DNA from: Natrialba swarupiae
GTDB taxonomy: Archaea > Halobacteriota > Halobacteria > Halobacteriales > Natrialbaceae
Assembly (NCBI RefSeq): GCF_008245225.1
Contig: NZ_VTAW01000001.1
Location: 1 to 64,000 of the forward strand
Length of the DNA stretch: 64,000 nt
Direction: 5' to 3'
Below are positions 48,740 to 56,535 of the stretch, one piece after another. The first letter of the stretch is position 1. The number at the start of each line of letters is the position of its first letter. The position numbers and the translations under genes are program-made. The notes under the pieces were generated by a model. The model had not been told where the DNA came from. It made no database searches and saw only the letters and a program-made list of their open reading frames with translations.

Positions 48740-50407
48740 ATGCGTTACCGAATGGGTGTCTGCTGTCTCGCGGTTTGTATCCTGCTTTCGGGCTGTGTCG
48801 GCGGTGCGCTCGAGGATAGACCCCCGTTCGGCGACGAGCCACCCGAGCCGACGACCGACGACTACGCCTTCGAGGAGGTCTCTACCGAGGCGAATCTCGA
48901 GTACGAGTCGATCGGGATCGGCGCGATAAACGGCAACGACGGCATCTACGCGGTCGACTACACGAACGACCTCGAGACGGATCTGCTCGCGATCGGCGGC
49001 GGACAGCCGGTCCTGTTCGAGAACACCGGCGGCGAGTTCGAGCGATCCGACGACCTCCCGCCGGTCGAGGGAACCGTCCAGGGCGCGCTCTTTGTCGATC
49101 ACGACAACGACGGCTGGGAGGATCTGCTTCTCTTGCGCCGCGGCGACACGCCGGTGTTCTTCGAGAACGACGAGGGAACGTTCCGCGAGCGCGACATCGG
49201 CTTCGACGACGAGTTCGTCGTTCCGGTCTCTGCGACGGCGGCCGACGCGACCGGCAACGGCTGTCCCGACGTCTTCGTCATCGACTACAACGACTGGCTC
49301 GACGAGCAGCCGATGGGGTGGCAACACTACCTCAACCTGACCGCCGAGGAGGACAACGGCCAGCCCAACGCCCTCTACGAAGGGACCTGCGGCGAGTTCG
49401 AGCGGGTCGACGACGCCGGCATCGAGGGCGACCACTGGAGCATGGCGACCAGCTTCGTCGATCTGACCGGCGACGGCAACCCCGATATCCACGTCGCGAA
49501 CGACTTCTTCGAAGACGAGATCTACTACAACCAGGGCGACGGCAGCTTCGAACGGGAGTACCTCGGCGAGGCGACGGACCGAAACGGGATGTCCTCACAG
49601 CCGGTCGACGTTACCGGCGACGGCCAACTCGAGCTCTTCGTCACCAACATCTACTTCCCACAGAGCCGCTGGGCCGAGATTCCCGACTCCCAGCGCCAGC
49701 TGTTCGTCGACTTCATGACCTCACGGATCGGCGACCGCAATCAGGGGAACAACCTGCTCGTGCACACTGAGGACGGGTTCGAGGATCAGGGCCAACAGCG
49801 CGGGCTGAACGAGGGCGGCTGGGGGTGGGGCTCCGCCGTCGAGGACTTCGACGGCGACGGACAGGTCGACGTCTTCCACGCGACCCAGTTCGAGGTCCGC
49901 TTCGACGAGCGCGAACCGACGTTCGTCCGCGGAATGTTGTTCGCCCAGCAGGACGGCCAGTTCCACCGTCTCAACACGAGCGAGGTTGGGTTCGAGGAGG
50001 TCGACGAACGCGGCGTCGCCGCGCTGGATTACGACGCGAGTGGATCGATGGACGTCGCCGTCGCGGCCAACGAAGCGCCGTACCGCCTCTACAGCAACGA
50101 GGGCGACCAGGGTGACAGTCTCCAGGTCGTCGTCGGCGGAAGCGAGGACCTCGAGCACACGACCCTCGGCACGACCGTCGAGGCGACCGCCGACGGCGAC
50201 ACGCAGCTTCGGGTTCGAAACGCCAGGGCGGACTACCAGTCACAGGATACGCGGACGCTTCACGTCGGGGTCGGCGAGACCGACTCGGTCGACGAACTCA
50301 GGGTGACCTGGCCCGACGGCACCGAACGGACGTTCGAGGACGTCGAGACCGGTCAGCGCATCCTCGTGACGCCCGACGGAATCGAAGACCGCCGATCGTA
50401 CTCGTAG
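48740..50407 (+). CDS. CRTAC1-like FG-GAP lipoprotein with ASPIC/UnbV domain
   Basis: The product has 555 residues. The signal ends in a lipobox, ILLSGC, so it is a surface lipoprotein. FG-GAP/integrin-like calcium-binding blades follow, with Asp-rich loops such as DHDNDGWEDLLLL, DATGNGCPDVF, DLTGDGNPDIHVAND and DVTGDGQLELFVTN. The C-terminal ASPIC/UnbV domain is about 465-545 (VGVGETDSVDELRVTWPDG). It ends four bases before the haloperoxidase-like gene. Adhesion or a structural partner role is inferred. Confidence 0.88.
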   Translation: MRYRMGVCCLAVCILLSGCVGGALEDRPPFGDEPPEPTTDDYAFEEVSTEANLEYESIGIGAINGNDGIYAVDYTNDLETDLLAIGGGQPVLFENTGGEFERSDDLPPVEGTVQGALFVDHDNDGWEDLLLLRRGDTPVFFENDEGTFRERDIGFDDEFVVPVSATAADATGNGCPDVFVIDYNDWLDEQPMGWQHYLNLTAEEDNGQPNALYEGTCGEFERVDDAGIEGDHWSMATSFVDLTGDGNPDIHVANDFFEDEIYYNQGDGSFEREYLGEATDRNGMSSQPVDVTGDGQLELFVTNIYFPQSRWAEIPDSQRQLFVDFMTSRIGDRNQGNNLLVHTEDGFEDQGQQRGLNEGGWGWGSAVEDFDGDGQVDVFHATQFEVRFDEREPTFVRGMLFAQQDGQFHRLNTSEVGFEEVDERGVAALDYDASGSMDVAVAANEAPYRLYSNEGDQGDSLQVVVGGSEDLEHTTLGTTVEATADGDTQLRVRNARADYQSQDTRTLHVGVGETDSVDELRVTWPDGTERTFEDVETGQRILVTPDGIEDRRSYS

Positions 50408-50411
50408 GAAC

Positions 50412-51884
50412 ATGTTCAATCCACGCACGCGATACGTCGACACGGATCGAACCGGCCCTGAAACGGATCGAACCGCCCTCGATCGTTCCAGCACGGAACG
50501 TTCGAGTGACGGCGTCGTCTCGAGTGCTGGCGAGGACAGTTCCTGCTCGAGTACTGGCGAGGACGATCCCTCCTCGAGAACGGCGACCGACGCACGCCCC
50601 TCGCGGAGCCGTCGCTCGGTGCTCGGGGCTCTGGGTACGGCCGCAGTCGTCGGCTTCGCGGGCTGTACCGAGGTCCTCGGGACGGGAGTGGTGCCGGCCG
50701 ACGAACCGCTGTGTCTGTGGAACGAACGGTTCGTCGAGGAGATTCAGCACTTTCGGGGCGGGAACTTCGCCCCCACGCGTCGCGGTGCGTTGTTGAACGT
50801 CGCGATGTTCGACGCCGCAAACGGCGTCGCCGCAGCGGCCGGCGACGACCACTTCGAGCCCTACCTCGTCGATCCGACCGACGCTCCGGCGGACGCGTCG
50901 GTGCTGGCCGCCGCGGCCGGTGCGGCCCACGAGACGATGACGGAACTGTACGGCGGCGAGTTCGACGACGACCTCCAGGCGACGCTCGCGGCGGCGGAAG
51001 GCGGTGACGTCGACGCGGGCGAACAGTGGGGACGAACGGTCGCGACCGTGCTACTCGAGCATCGCGACGACGAGTACGCGACCGACATCTACATCCCCTG
51101 CGAGGAGCCGACCCAGCCCGGCTGTTTTCGCCGGGACTGGAATCCCGTCCACGCACGCGTCGAGCCGTGGGCGATGGACTCCCGCGACCAGTTCCGATCG
51201 GACGGGCCGCCGGCCCTCGAGAGCGAGGCGTACGCCGACGACTGGTGGGAGGTGTACGAACTCGGAAACGACGCCGACGACCGGCCCCAGGAACACGTCG
51301 ACGTCGCGGCCTTCTGGCGTGGCGCGGCGGGCTCTCCACGGCCGCCGAACATGTGGAACGTTATCACCCAGAAAATCGTCGTCGACGAGTCGCTGTCCGT
51401 CCTCGAGGAGTGTCGGCTGTTCGCGTTGCTTTCGCTGGCGCTTGCGGACGCGGGCATCGCGGGCTCGGAGGCGAAGTACGAGTACGGCTTCTGGCGGCCC
51501 CGGACGGCGATCCACGAGGCCGACCGCGACGGCAACCCGGAGACCCACGCGGACGGGACTTGGGCACCGCTTTCGGTCGGGGGGTCACCCGAGTACACCT
51601 CGACGCTCGCCGCCTACGGCGGGGCCGGCTGTGCCGTCCTCGAGGGCGTCCTCGGGAGCGGCGAGTACGCTTTCGAGTTCGGCTCGGACATCCGGACCGG
51701 AACCGCCGGAGAGGACGAGGGGGTGGTCAGGTCCCACGACAGCCTCGGCGACGCGCTCGAGGAGTCGATCGACAGCCGCATCTACCTCGGAAATCACTTC
51801 CGTTCGGCGATGGTCGACGGCCGCGAGCAGGGCGAACGGATCGGCGAGTGGCTCCTCGAGAACTCGCTGCGTCCCGTCGAGTGA
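50412..51884 (+). CDS. Vanadium-haloperoxidase-like PAP2 protein
   Basis: The product has 490 residues. After about 55 disordered residues comes a Tat-type leader with RRSVLGALGTAAVVGFAGC. The PAP2/VHPO helices then follow. K355-x6-R362-P (KYEYGFWRP) and R456-x5-H462 (RIYLGNH) match the vanadate-pocket residues and spacing known from chloroperoxidase. The middle motif, normally PSGH, reads TSTL (S397-T398-L399), and the Asp four residues after the last His is Ala466. The vanadate pocket may be partly kept, but the catalytic His is missing. Activity is uncertain. Confidence 0.8.
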   Translation: MFNPRTRYVDTDRTGPETDRTALDRSSTERSSDGVVSSAGEDSSCSSTGEDDPSSRTATDARPSRSRRSVLGALGTAAVVGFAGCTEVLGTGVVPADEPLCLWNERFVEEIQHFRGGNFAPTRRGALLNVAMFDAANGVAAAAGDDHFEPYLVDPTDAPADASVLAAAAGAAHETMTELYGGEFDDDLQATLAAAEGGDVDAGEQWGRTVATVLLEHRDDEYATDIYIPCEEPTQPGCFRRDWNPVHARVEPWAMDSRDQFRSDGPPALESEAYADDWWEVYELGNDADDRPQEHVDVAAFWRGAAGSPRPPNMWNVITQKIVVDESLSVLEECRLFALLSLALADAGIAGSEAKYEYGFWRPRTAIHEADRDGNPETHADGTWAPLSVGGSPEYTSTLAAYGGAGCAVLEGVLGSGEYAFEFGSDIRTGTAGEDEGVVRSHDSLGDALEESIDSRIYLGNHFRSAMVDGREQGERIGEWLLENSLRPVE

Positions 51885-53952: not shown

Positions 53953-54399
53953 TCAGTCGAGAAACCGCGACTGTACGTCCTCGCTCGGCATCATACACTG
54001 GTCTTTCTTGCCGAACAGCCGGTACCGATTGGCCGCGACGACGTCGTATCCGAAATCCCGGAGTCGACGCGGGAGGTACCGAAGTGGTCCGGCGAGCCTG
54101 TAGACGCCGCCGAGAAGCGTGCCGATCCGGAGCGCAGCCGTCGATTTCACGTACACCTTCTCGCCCTCGATGAGGACGATCGAGTCGAGATCGTGATTCT
54201 CGAGGCCGTAGTCGTCGACGAGTTGCTGGCCGACGTCGGACTGCAGGGATGCGAAGTGGAAGATCCCCTCCGGATCGCGGGGGATGAGAAATTGGACGAA
54301 CCCGGTACAGAGGTTACAGACGCCGTCGAAGAGAACGACCGCGCCGTCCTCGGGAATCACACCTGGGGTCGTCCGATCGTCCGGAACCTCTTCACTCAT
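53953..54399 (-). CDS. DCC1-like thiol-disulfide oxidoreductase (DUF393)
   Basis: The product has 148 residues. VVLFDGVCNLCTGFVQFLIPRD holds the DxxCxxC motif typical of the family, and the later FASLQSDVGQQLV and GDYDVVAANRYRLFG-like stretch match DUF393. The two Cys form a thioredoxin-like active site. It is 60 bases downstream of the HTTM gene on the same strand; DCC and HTTM proteins are often adjacent or fused in bacteria, so they probably act together. Confidence 0.85.
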   Translation of the reverse strand: MSEEVPDDRTTPGVIPEDGAVVLFDGVCNLCTGFVQFLIPRDPEGIFHFASLQSDVGQQLVDDYGLENHDLDSIVLIEGEKVYVKSTAALRIGTLLGGVYRLAGPLRYLPRRLRDFGYDVVAANRYRLFGKKDQCMMPSEDVQSRFLD

Positions 54400-54459: not shown

Positions 54460-56061
54460 TCAGAGGTCGTCCGGTGGCGGTCCGATCTCCATCGGCTCGT
54501 GTTCGTCACCGCAGGGGTTTTTCTGGATGAGCGTCGCGTAGCGCTCGCGCTCTTCGTGGTCGTCGATGGTCTCCATCGTGATGTCCTCGGTGACGTAGTA
54601 CATGTTCACGTGAGTTAGCTCGATACCATGCTCCTCTTCCCACGTCTCACAGATGTGTTCGGCCATCACGTCCGGCGCGTCGTTTCCGGCACTCGAGCCG
54701 CCGCGGCGGACGCTGTTCATGTAGAAGCGCTCGCGGTACGTGCCGTACTGTTGCTGTAGCTGGTCGTACGGTCTGTCGTAGGTGAGCGGCCGGTCGTTGT
54801 AGACGTCGATCAGGTCGCCATCGGCGGTCTTCGCGGGGAAGACGTGGTACCGGTCGGACGTTCGCGGATGGGGAGCGAAGACGGTCCAGTTCGGTTGGTC
54901 GGCGGCGACGATCGAGGCGATGCCGTCGATCTCGTCGTCGGGATTGACGTCGTCGCCCACGACCGCGCCCATCGGTGCGTGCGCAAAGAGCAGGAAGACG
55001 ATCAGCGAGGCGGCGACGACGGTCAAGCTCACGTCGTACACCGCGGCCCTCGCCTGCGACAGTCGCTCGTCGTCGAACCCGACCGTCGGGAAGTAGTCGG
55101 CGACGCACTCAAGTCGGGAGAGCCGGTCGGTGATCCGCGACGGCTCGACGTTCGCGTACCGCAGCAGGCTCTTGCCGTCCTCCCACACCTGTCGCTGGAC
55201 GAACAGGAGTAATCCGGCGATGGCGACGTAGGCGAACGCGCCGATCCGGACCGTCACGGCGAACGACGCGTGGGCGATGACGAACGGCAAGACGAGTACC
55301 ATCCGCTTTCGGCCGACGACGAGGAGGAGCACCCACGAGAACAGCAACATGTAGTACCACTTCAGGCCGCCGAGCTGGAGCAGCGTCGGGAACTGCCGCA
55401 TCGGCTCCGCGAGCAGAAACGTCATGTCGTCGAGCCCCATGATCAACGGGGTCGCCTCCCCGCTGGTCCACAGGTCGGATTCCATCTTGTGGACGCCGTT
55501 GTGGACGTACATGTAGACCATCTGAAACAGGATCAACGCCGAGGCGAGGCCCGCGACGCTCGCTTGTGGCTCGCGGTCGGCCTGGACGGCGTCGACCGAC
55601 CACCGCTCGCCAAGCGGGAGGAAGATCGCCCAGAACAAAAGCAGGCGGAACAGGATGTCGGCGTAGCTCGTGACCAGCGGATTGTGGTGGTCGAGTGAGA
55701 CGACGAACAGGAACGTCAGGATCGTCGCGATCCGCGTCTTGTAACCGACGATAAGCTGGACCGCGATCAGCGCCTGGACGACGAACAGCGCGGCGATCAC
55801 CGTCGGATCGGTCGTGTAGTGAAATACGGAGAACGCACCGCTCGAGGAGAGGTCGTGTGCGAGCGACTGCGGAACGACACCGTCGTTCGTATAGAAGTAC
55901 GAGAAGTTCCGGCTTCGGGCGACCAGATCAGCCAGGACGAGTATTCCGGCGAACACCCGAAACACGGCGAGGGTCCGCGTGTCGATCCGTACGCGATCCG
56001 CAACGCCCTCACGGACTCGAGTGGCGAGATCCAATCGACGAAGCGATAGCTCGGAAGTCAT
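54460..56061 (-). CDS. HTTM-domain membrane protein (gamma-carboxylase-like)
   Basis: The product has 533 residues from the ATG at 56061 (MTSELSLRRLDLATRV). The HTTM domain covers about 30-330 with several helices: TLAVFRVFAGILVLADLV, FYTNDGVVP, SLDHHNPLVTSYADILFRLLLFWAIFLPLG. The HTTM fold is shared with vitamin-K-dependent carboxylase. The C-terminal 140 residues are soluble (NWTVFAPHPRTSDRYHVFPAK) and may lie outside. A DCC1-like gene follows. Quinone-linked chemistry is a guess from the family. Confidence 0.82.
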   Translation of the reverse strand: MTSELSLRRLDLATRVREGVADRVRIDTRTLAVFRVFAGILVLADLVARSRNFSYFYTNDGVVPQSLAHDLSSSGAFSVFHYTTDPTVIAALFVVQALIAVQLIVGYKTRIATILTFLFVVSLDHHNPLVTSYADILFRLLLFWAIFLPLGERWSVDAVQADREPQASVAGLASALILFQMVYMYVHNGVHKMESDLWTSGEATPLIMGLDDMTFLLAEPMRQFPTLLQLGGLKWYYMLLFSWVLLLVVGRKRMVLVLPFVIAHASFAVTVRIGAFAYVAIAGLLLFVQRQVWEDGKSLLRYANVEPSRITDRLSRLECVADYFPTVGFDDERLSQARAAVYDVSLTVVAASLIVFLLFAHAPMGAVVGDDVNPDDEIDGIASIVAADQPNWTVFAPHPRTSDRYHVFPAKTADGDLIDVYNDRPLTYDRPYDQLQQQYGTYRERFYMNSVRRGGSSAGNDAPDVMAEHICETWEEEHGIELTHVNMYYVTEDITMETIDDHEERERYATLIQKNPCGDEHEPMEIGPPPDDL

Positions 56062-56535
56062 CGGTTCACGACCGCCTGACGGTCGAACGGCTGTGCTCTG
56101 TGAACGCACATCGCTCGTCCGTTCGTCGCCGTCCGTTCTCTCTGGCTCGTCATCGTGGCTTCCGTTTCGCCCGGTTCTCGACCAACTGTCGATCGAACGC
56201 CGGGTCGGGGACTCACGGCGTCGGTTCGGGAGGGATGACCGGGTATCTCTCCCAGTATCGCGAGCCGTCTCCTATATATTTTCTGTTCACCGCCGATCGA
56301 CGGGAACGGTGAATCAGTTCGCACACCGGTACTCGAGTACATGCCTCGCCACCTACCCGTCGGGTTTTGCGGCCCGGTCGCGCGCCCGCTTCGGTGTCAC
56401 CGGACTGCGACGCTCGGCGACCGTCGATCAGGGTCGTCTGTCAGACAGTTTCACCTGCCACGTCCCATCAGGAGCTCGTCCGCTGTCCCTTTGTTACGGC
56501 CTCGTCCGCTGTCTCTCCGTCCAGGACCTCGTCGG
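56062..56535. other. Gene-free spacer between HTTM and hef
   Basis: Several frames are open by chance, but none has coding character. An AT-rich CCTATATATTTTCTG at about 56270-56284 could be a promoter, but it is more than 200 bases from the HTTM start. Nothing else is recognised. Confidence 0.35.

Follow-up and report, generated by a model that had tools for sequence, protein, structure and literature searches.

A CRTAC1-type lipoprotein gene in Natrialba swarupiae is paired with a gene for a haloperoxidase-fold protein of a clade in which the Ser-Gly-His histidine is replaced by leucine

The window analyzed here is a stretch of 64,000 nucleotides of Natrialba swarupiae (contig NZ_VTAW01000001.1, positions 1 to 64,000). 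Two genes on its forward strand follow one another with only GAAC between them (Table 1), which agrees with the four-base spacing given in an earlier sequence-only reading of this DNA. The first gene, ORF1, codes for a CRTAC1-type protein, in which FG-GAP repeats (FG-GAP_3, E 1.3e-28) and a C-terminal UnbV_ASPIC domain (E 5.3e-16) were detected with Pfam, and judged on domain content it is an ordinary member of its family. To our knowledge, no function has been established so far for CRTAC1 proteins. The second gene, ORF2, codes for a protein with the vanadium haloperoxidase (VHPO) fold. Both products had been read as exported, and the signals bear this out: a Sec-type lipobox is present in ORF1, and a Tat motif together with a lipobox in ORF2.

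Each of the two genes occurs as a single copy in the host genome. Orthologs of ORF1 in three relatives are 75–79% identical to it. The host stands close to Natrarchaeobius, and two of the three nearest orthologs belong to Natrarchaeobius chitinivorans strains AArcht4 and AArcht7, in which the pair is syntenic with the window and is flanked by a putative malate dehydrogenase gene and a SLOG-family gene. The ortholog pair in genome G122 lies in a different gene context. Elsewhere in the window (53953-54399 and 54460-56109, minus strand), a gene for an HTTM-domain membrane protein (Pfam PF05090) adjoins one for a small putative DCC-type thiol oxidoreductase, and these neighbors are kept in both Natrarchaeobius relatives. 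In the literature searched, no paper contained CRTAC1 together with a haloperoxidase.

Table 1. Features of the gene pair, in window coordinates
Feature	Positions	Strand	Basis
CRTAC1-type lipoprotein gene (ORF1), 555 aa	48740..50407	+	ORF; FG-GAP repeats, C-terminal UnbV_ASPIC (Pfam)
Lipobox LSGC (C19) of the CRTAC1 protein	48785..48796	+	sequence motif
VHPO-fold protein gene (ORF2), 490 aa, His-to-Leu clade	50412..51884	+	ORF; phmmer; Foldseek
Tat motif SRRSVL (residues 66-71)	50607..50624	+	sequence motif
Lipobox cysteine C85 (FAGC)	50664..50666	+	invariant in alignment A2
W302-R-G-A-A306, VCPO Asp292 region, no acidic residue in Leu clade	51315..51329	+	
K355, equivalent of VCPO Lys353	51474..51476	+	
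R362, equivalent of VCPO Arg360	51495..51497	+	
G390-G391-S392 in place of PPF loop (VCPO Phe397 region)	51579..51587	+	
S397-T398-L399 in place of Ser-Gly-His (VCPO 402-404)	51600..51608	+	
R456, equivalent of VCPO Arg490	51777..51779	+	
H462, equivalent of vanadate-ligand His496; sole invariant His of clade	51795..51797	+	

Searches of Pfam and NCBIfam gave no family match for ORF2. An AF2 model of its core (pLDDT 85, pTM 0.89) has the helical fold of VHPOs, and these ranked first when the model was compared with the PDB by Foldseek (4usz, E 3.7e-15, TM 0.77/0.74); the best matches were the Zobellia iodoperoxidase (ZgVIPO) and the Curvularia chloroperoxidase (VCPO), with acid phosphatases far behind. 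Sequence comparison with ZgVIPO gave E 9.1e-14 (phmmer to 4cit) and E 2.2e-39 (profile). Residues K355, R362, S397, R456 and H462, which had been assigned to the vanadate pocket from the letters alone, aligned with the KxxxxxxRP...SGH...SRxxxGxH anchors of both ZgVIPO and VCPO. In the latter enzyme, Lys353, Arg360, Ser402, His404 and Arg490 hold vanadate and His496 is the ligand (PMC10278073). With the anchors kept in 11 divergent homologs in addition to the Foldseek score, the relationship of ORF2 to VHPOs is far beyond chance.

His404 of VCPO is the acid-base residue. Its place in ORF2 is taken by Leu399, the Gly-His after the Ser being Thr-Leu as previously read, and the alignment of SGH with STL was stable in phmmer, profile and hhalign comparisons with ZgVIPO or its relatives and in the profile alignment to VCPO. 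The acid at the Asp292 position is likewise absent (WRGAA). The Ala that follows H462 in place of Asp was also read correctly, but as a sign of lost function it is ruled out, since ZgVIPO, a proven iodoperoxidase, has Ala at the same place (HYRAA).

A VHPO-like homolog was detected in 10 of 392 sampled haloarchaeal genomes, including the host, and the other homologs are 42–76% identical to the window protein. Position 399 is Leu in all readable haloarchaeal homologs, and also in two bacterial metagenome-assembled genomes (Salinibacteraceae and Phycisphaeraceae), while the preceding residue is Gly or Thr; it is therefore Leu, and not the Thr-Leu pair, that is fixed, and an SGH retained in the clade with only this copy deviating, as the earlier reading had allowed for, was not seen. 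The patterns of the alignment-driven genome scan favored Leu-type sequences, and SGH relatives were therefore sought by profile search. The 12 Leu-bearing sequences (haloarchaea and the two bacterial genomes) were monophyletic in a 69-row tree (SH-aLRT 94), with relatives outside this Leu clade mostly having SGH, and when the tree had 78 rows, a Nonomuraea protein with SGH (L211) was the sister of the clade (support 97).

In an alignment of 11 clade sequences, the K, R, R and H anchors and Leu399 were present in all, and the Ser in 10; one member, L007 (the same gene as in L018), has lost the Ser anchor. Clade-specific conserved positions include R310, D469, W206, W243 and W278. Among close orthologs of the VHPO-like gene dN/dS was 0.20-0.30, similar to CRTAC1, so the gene is not decaying. 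Thus, the His-to-Leu change is clade-wide and under purifying selection, and is not peculiar to the window copy. It could be argued that ORF2 is an ordinary haloperoxidase which was misaligned, or in which another His occupies the pocket, and two candidates, H147 (9/11) and H368 (8/11), are indeed frequent in the clade. However, SPEYxSxL of the Leu clade aligned with FPEYxSGH in phmmer, profile and hhalign comparisons and no His besides H462 was invariant in the 11 sequences, so that this explanation is very improbable and the absence of the acid-base His, as originally claimed, stands.

Several isolated sequences should also be mentioned. A planctomycete VHPO homolog (L045) has Cys-Gly-Leu instead of Ser-Gly-His, but it lies outside the Leu clade and is a separate case. 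One genome has a near-identical second VHPO-like copy (L020, about 9504, G065:C6) in which TGA stands in frame where R456 would be encoded. A scan of viral sequences (IMG/VR) yielded only two homologs (L171 and L172), both with SGH and near contig ends; they keep the His and have no acid after the Trp.

The loss of His is accompanied by other changes in the active site. An acidic residue after the Trp302 position, at the place of VCPO Asp292, was found in 57 of 62 His-bearing homologs and in none of 13 Leu-bearing homologs, although it is not strictly universal among SGH proteins. At first His and acid went together without exception (55/55 versus 0/13), but five added sequences that have His without the acid weakened this association, and the losses on the tree represent too few independent events for significance. 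In addition, members of the Leu clade have GGS in place of the PPF loop that precedes the Ser. The Nonomuraea sister keeps SGH, lacks the acid and already has the GGSPEY loop; judging from this one sequence, the acid and the loop probably changed before the His in a stepwise loss. The Leu clade and its SGH-containing, Asp-lacking sister may thus be viewed as a natural series in which a VHPO site was dismantled or repurposed. These co-losses, of the acid and of the loop, go beyond the sequence-only reading.

The H404A and D292A mutants of VCPO lose chloride oxidation and retain some bromide oxidation. The earlier suggestion that halide may not be oxidized is therefore unsupported as stated, and ORF2 could be a weak haloperoxidase that still acts on bromide or iodide, though not on chloride, its protons being relayed by water or the substrate. 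The intact vanadate anchors and the behavior of the two mutants (both are in the PDB, 1vng and 1vne) are consistent with this, but fixation of the His loss over a deep clade, together with that of the acid and the PPF loop, implies that the halide function was released, and we regard weak halide oxidation as unlikely. A phosphatase or phosphotransferase in which H462 would act as the nucleophile, in the manner of PAP2 enzymes, is less probable still. The fold and the nucleophile are common to PAP2 acid phosphatases, which gave weak Foldseek matches, and Pfam PAP2 matched 3 of 9 members. It did not match the window protein, in which, of the PAP2 motifs KxxxxxxRP, PSGH and SRxxxxxHxxxD, PSGH is TSTL and the final Asp is Ala. 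Moreover, PAP2 phosphatases use the very His that is missing here as their leaving-group acid, and the protein that usually occupies the place of ORF2 in haloarchaea (see below) is not a phosphatase.

Of the 392 haloarchaeal genomes, 48 have CRTAC1, and most of these lack a VHPO-like gene. Among 53 haloarchaeal CRTAC1 copies, 40 had a gene for DUF7405 (PF24152, Tat-exported) as a neighbor, six (including the window) had the VHPO-like gene, none had both and seven had neither. That DUF7405 is the usual haloarchaeal CRTAC1 partner is likewise new relative to the sequence-only reading; the name occurs in no paper found by our literature search. The CRTAC1 clade of the window is nested inside DUF7405-partnered CRTAC1s (support 100), and the VHPO-like gene therefore probably took over the slot from DUF7405, with the pairs in L018 and L019, which are on long branches, as what may be separate events. 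DUF7405 appears to be a distant relative of DyP peroxidases, although the link is weak: Dyp_perox_C was matched with 27.7 bits in one member (cut-off 20) and weakly in three others (4 of 11 members at E < 0.1, best 2.6e-6), and the only PDB matches of the DUF7405 profile were DyP-type peroxidases at E ~0.1. Nothing was found by hhalign against single EfeB and YfeX sequences, so the link rests on Pfam. One His of DUF7405 is invariant (H346 in L165). The VHPO-like protein itself did not match PF24152 or Dyp_perox, and its profile comparison with DUF7405 by hhalign (probability 1.4%) indicates unrelated sequences. As separate observations, three DUF7405-CRTAC1 pairs directly adjoin a putative GH3 glycosidase gene (L164, 8077-10308; L165, 8122-10353; L166, 7725-9956), and in L168 and L207 (G025:C53) several CRTAC1-like genes cluster with putative PQQ-type propellers and have no adjacent DUF7405.

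The earlier statement that CRTAC1-haloperoxidase pairs occur in bacteria proved accurate for one phylum. Among 22 loci of Bacteroidota, the phylum of the Salinibacteraceae genome, mostly with ZgVIPO-like proteins, CRTAC1 was found in the fetched stretch in 13, and in 11 it and the VHPO gene were immediate neighbors of the same orientation; it was found in none of 18 other bacterial loci. A published study describes genes of the CRTAC1 family that adjoin homologs of the subunits of hydrazine synthase, one of them similar to dihaem cytochrome c peroxidases (PMC12758564). Taken together, the DUF7405 pairs, the pairs with canonical VHPOs in Bacteroidota and the hydrazine synthase-type neighbors suggest that exported proteins of the peroxidase type are the partners of CRTAC1 and that the VHPO-like protein fills that slot. 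A slot filled by unrelated proteins of this type offers a direct hypothesis for CRTAC1 function. Its broadest form, in which CRTAC1 is a general subunit of exported peroxidases whose folds are unrelated (VHPO, DyP-like, dihaem) and the peroxidase subunit in the ORF2 clade is a new vanadate enzyme that needs no classical acid-base His to oxidize a substrate other than halide, seems rather unlikely to us.

Our preferred explanation, advanced tentatively and with somewhat less than even confidence, is that the two genes encode a two-protein unit of the cell surface, in which a propeller lipoprotein of the CRTAC1 type is joined by a lipoprotein with the VHPO fold from a derived clade. The latter keeps the residues that cradle the oxyanion (Lys, Arg, Ser, Arg and the vanadate-ligating His), but without its acid-base His, without an Asp292-type acid and without the PPF loop it would no longer be a standard haloperoxidase. 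It may bind vanadate or another oxyanion and oxidize an organic substrate at the surface in the manner of a peroxidase, for which CRTAC1 would provide docking or present the substrate, in the place given to DyP-related DUF7405 in other haloarchaea. The data show the fold, the residues, the clade-wide fixation, the purifying selection, the gene pairing and the switch of partner. Retention of the cradle after loss of the acid-base and loop residues points to binding of an oxyanion but not to standard turnover of halide, and the partner slot points to work of the peroxidase type; the two pull in different directions with regard to catalysis, which is why our confidence is limited. We infer the bound oxyanion, the peroxide chemistry, the physical complex and the substrate. 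Against a peroxidase role, the lost His and acid serve peroxide and halide turnover, and another proton route would be needed. Furthermore, some members of the Leu clade (L020-L023, L030 and L032) have no CRTAC1 neighbor, and the weak DUF7405-DyP link also counts against the model, as does the small number of independent losses of acid and His. A possible but more doubtful explanation is a pseudoenzyme that binds phosphate, vanadate or nothing and serves CRTAC1 as a structural or sensing partner without catalysis. The loss of His, acid and loop around a preserved anion cradle, and of the Ser as well in L007, would fit this, but divergent members show no variation at the anchors, among them the vanadate-ligand His, and the same slot is elsewhere taken by peroxidase-type proteins. 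Independent of its chemistry, ORF2 represents a genuine variant of the VHPO fold that is shared by its whole clade, and the rule by which its gene is partnered in the genome was not expected.

The closest known systems are the vanadium iodoperoxidase of Zobellia galactanivorans (4cit, 4usz) and its Bacteroidota relatives, which have the fold and the vanadate anchors in common with ORF2 (about 21-22% identity to the Zobellia enzyme in structure alignment). The relatives of the Zobellia enzyme frequently have a CRTAC1 gene directly upstream, as here. Unlike ORF2, the iodoperoxidase and its relatives keep SGH and the acid after the Trp and form a separate clade, and their CRTAC1 partners are larger, ~1100 aa, whereas ORF1 is a short archaeal lipoprotein. 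The vanadium chloroperoxidase of Curvularia inaequalis (1vnc) also has the same fold and all five anchors in common with ORF2, but its His404 corresponds to Leu399 and the Asp292 and Phe397 positions are not conserved. In other haloarchaea the position next to CRTAC1 is taken by DUF7405, the sequence of which is unrelated to that of ORF2. Finally, NapH3 (8cxl), a VHPO homolog from napyradiomycin biosynthesis that was also matched by Foldseek, belongs to a different lineage (17-18% identity to ORF2 in structure alignment); it carries out an alpha-hydroxyketone rearrangement and provides a precedent for the VHPO fold with other chemistry.
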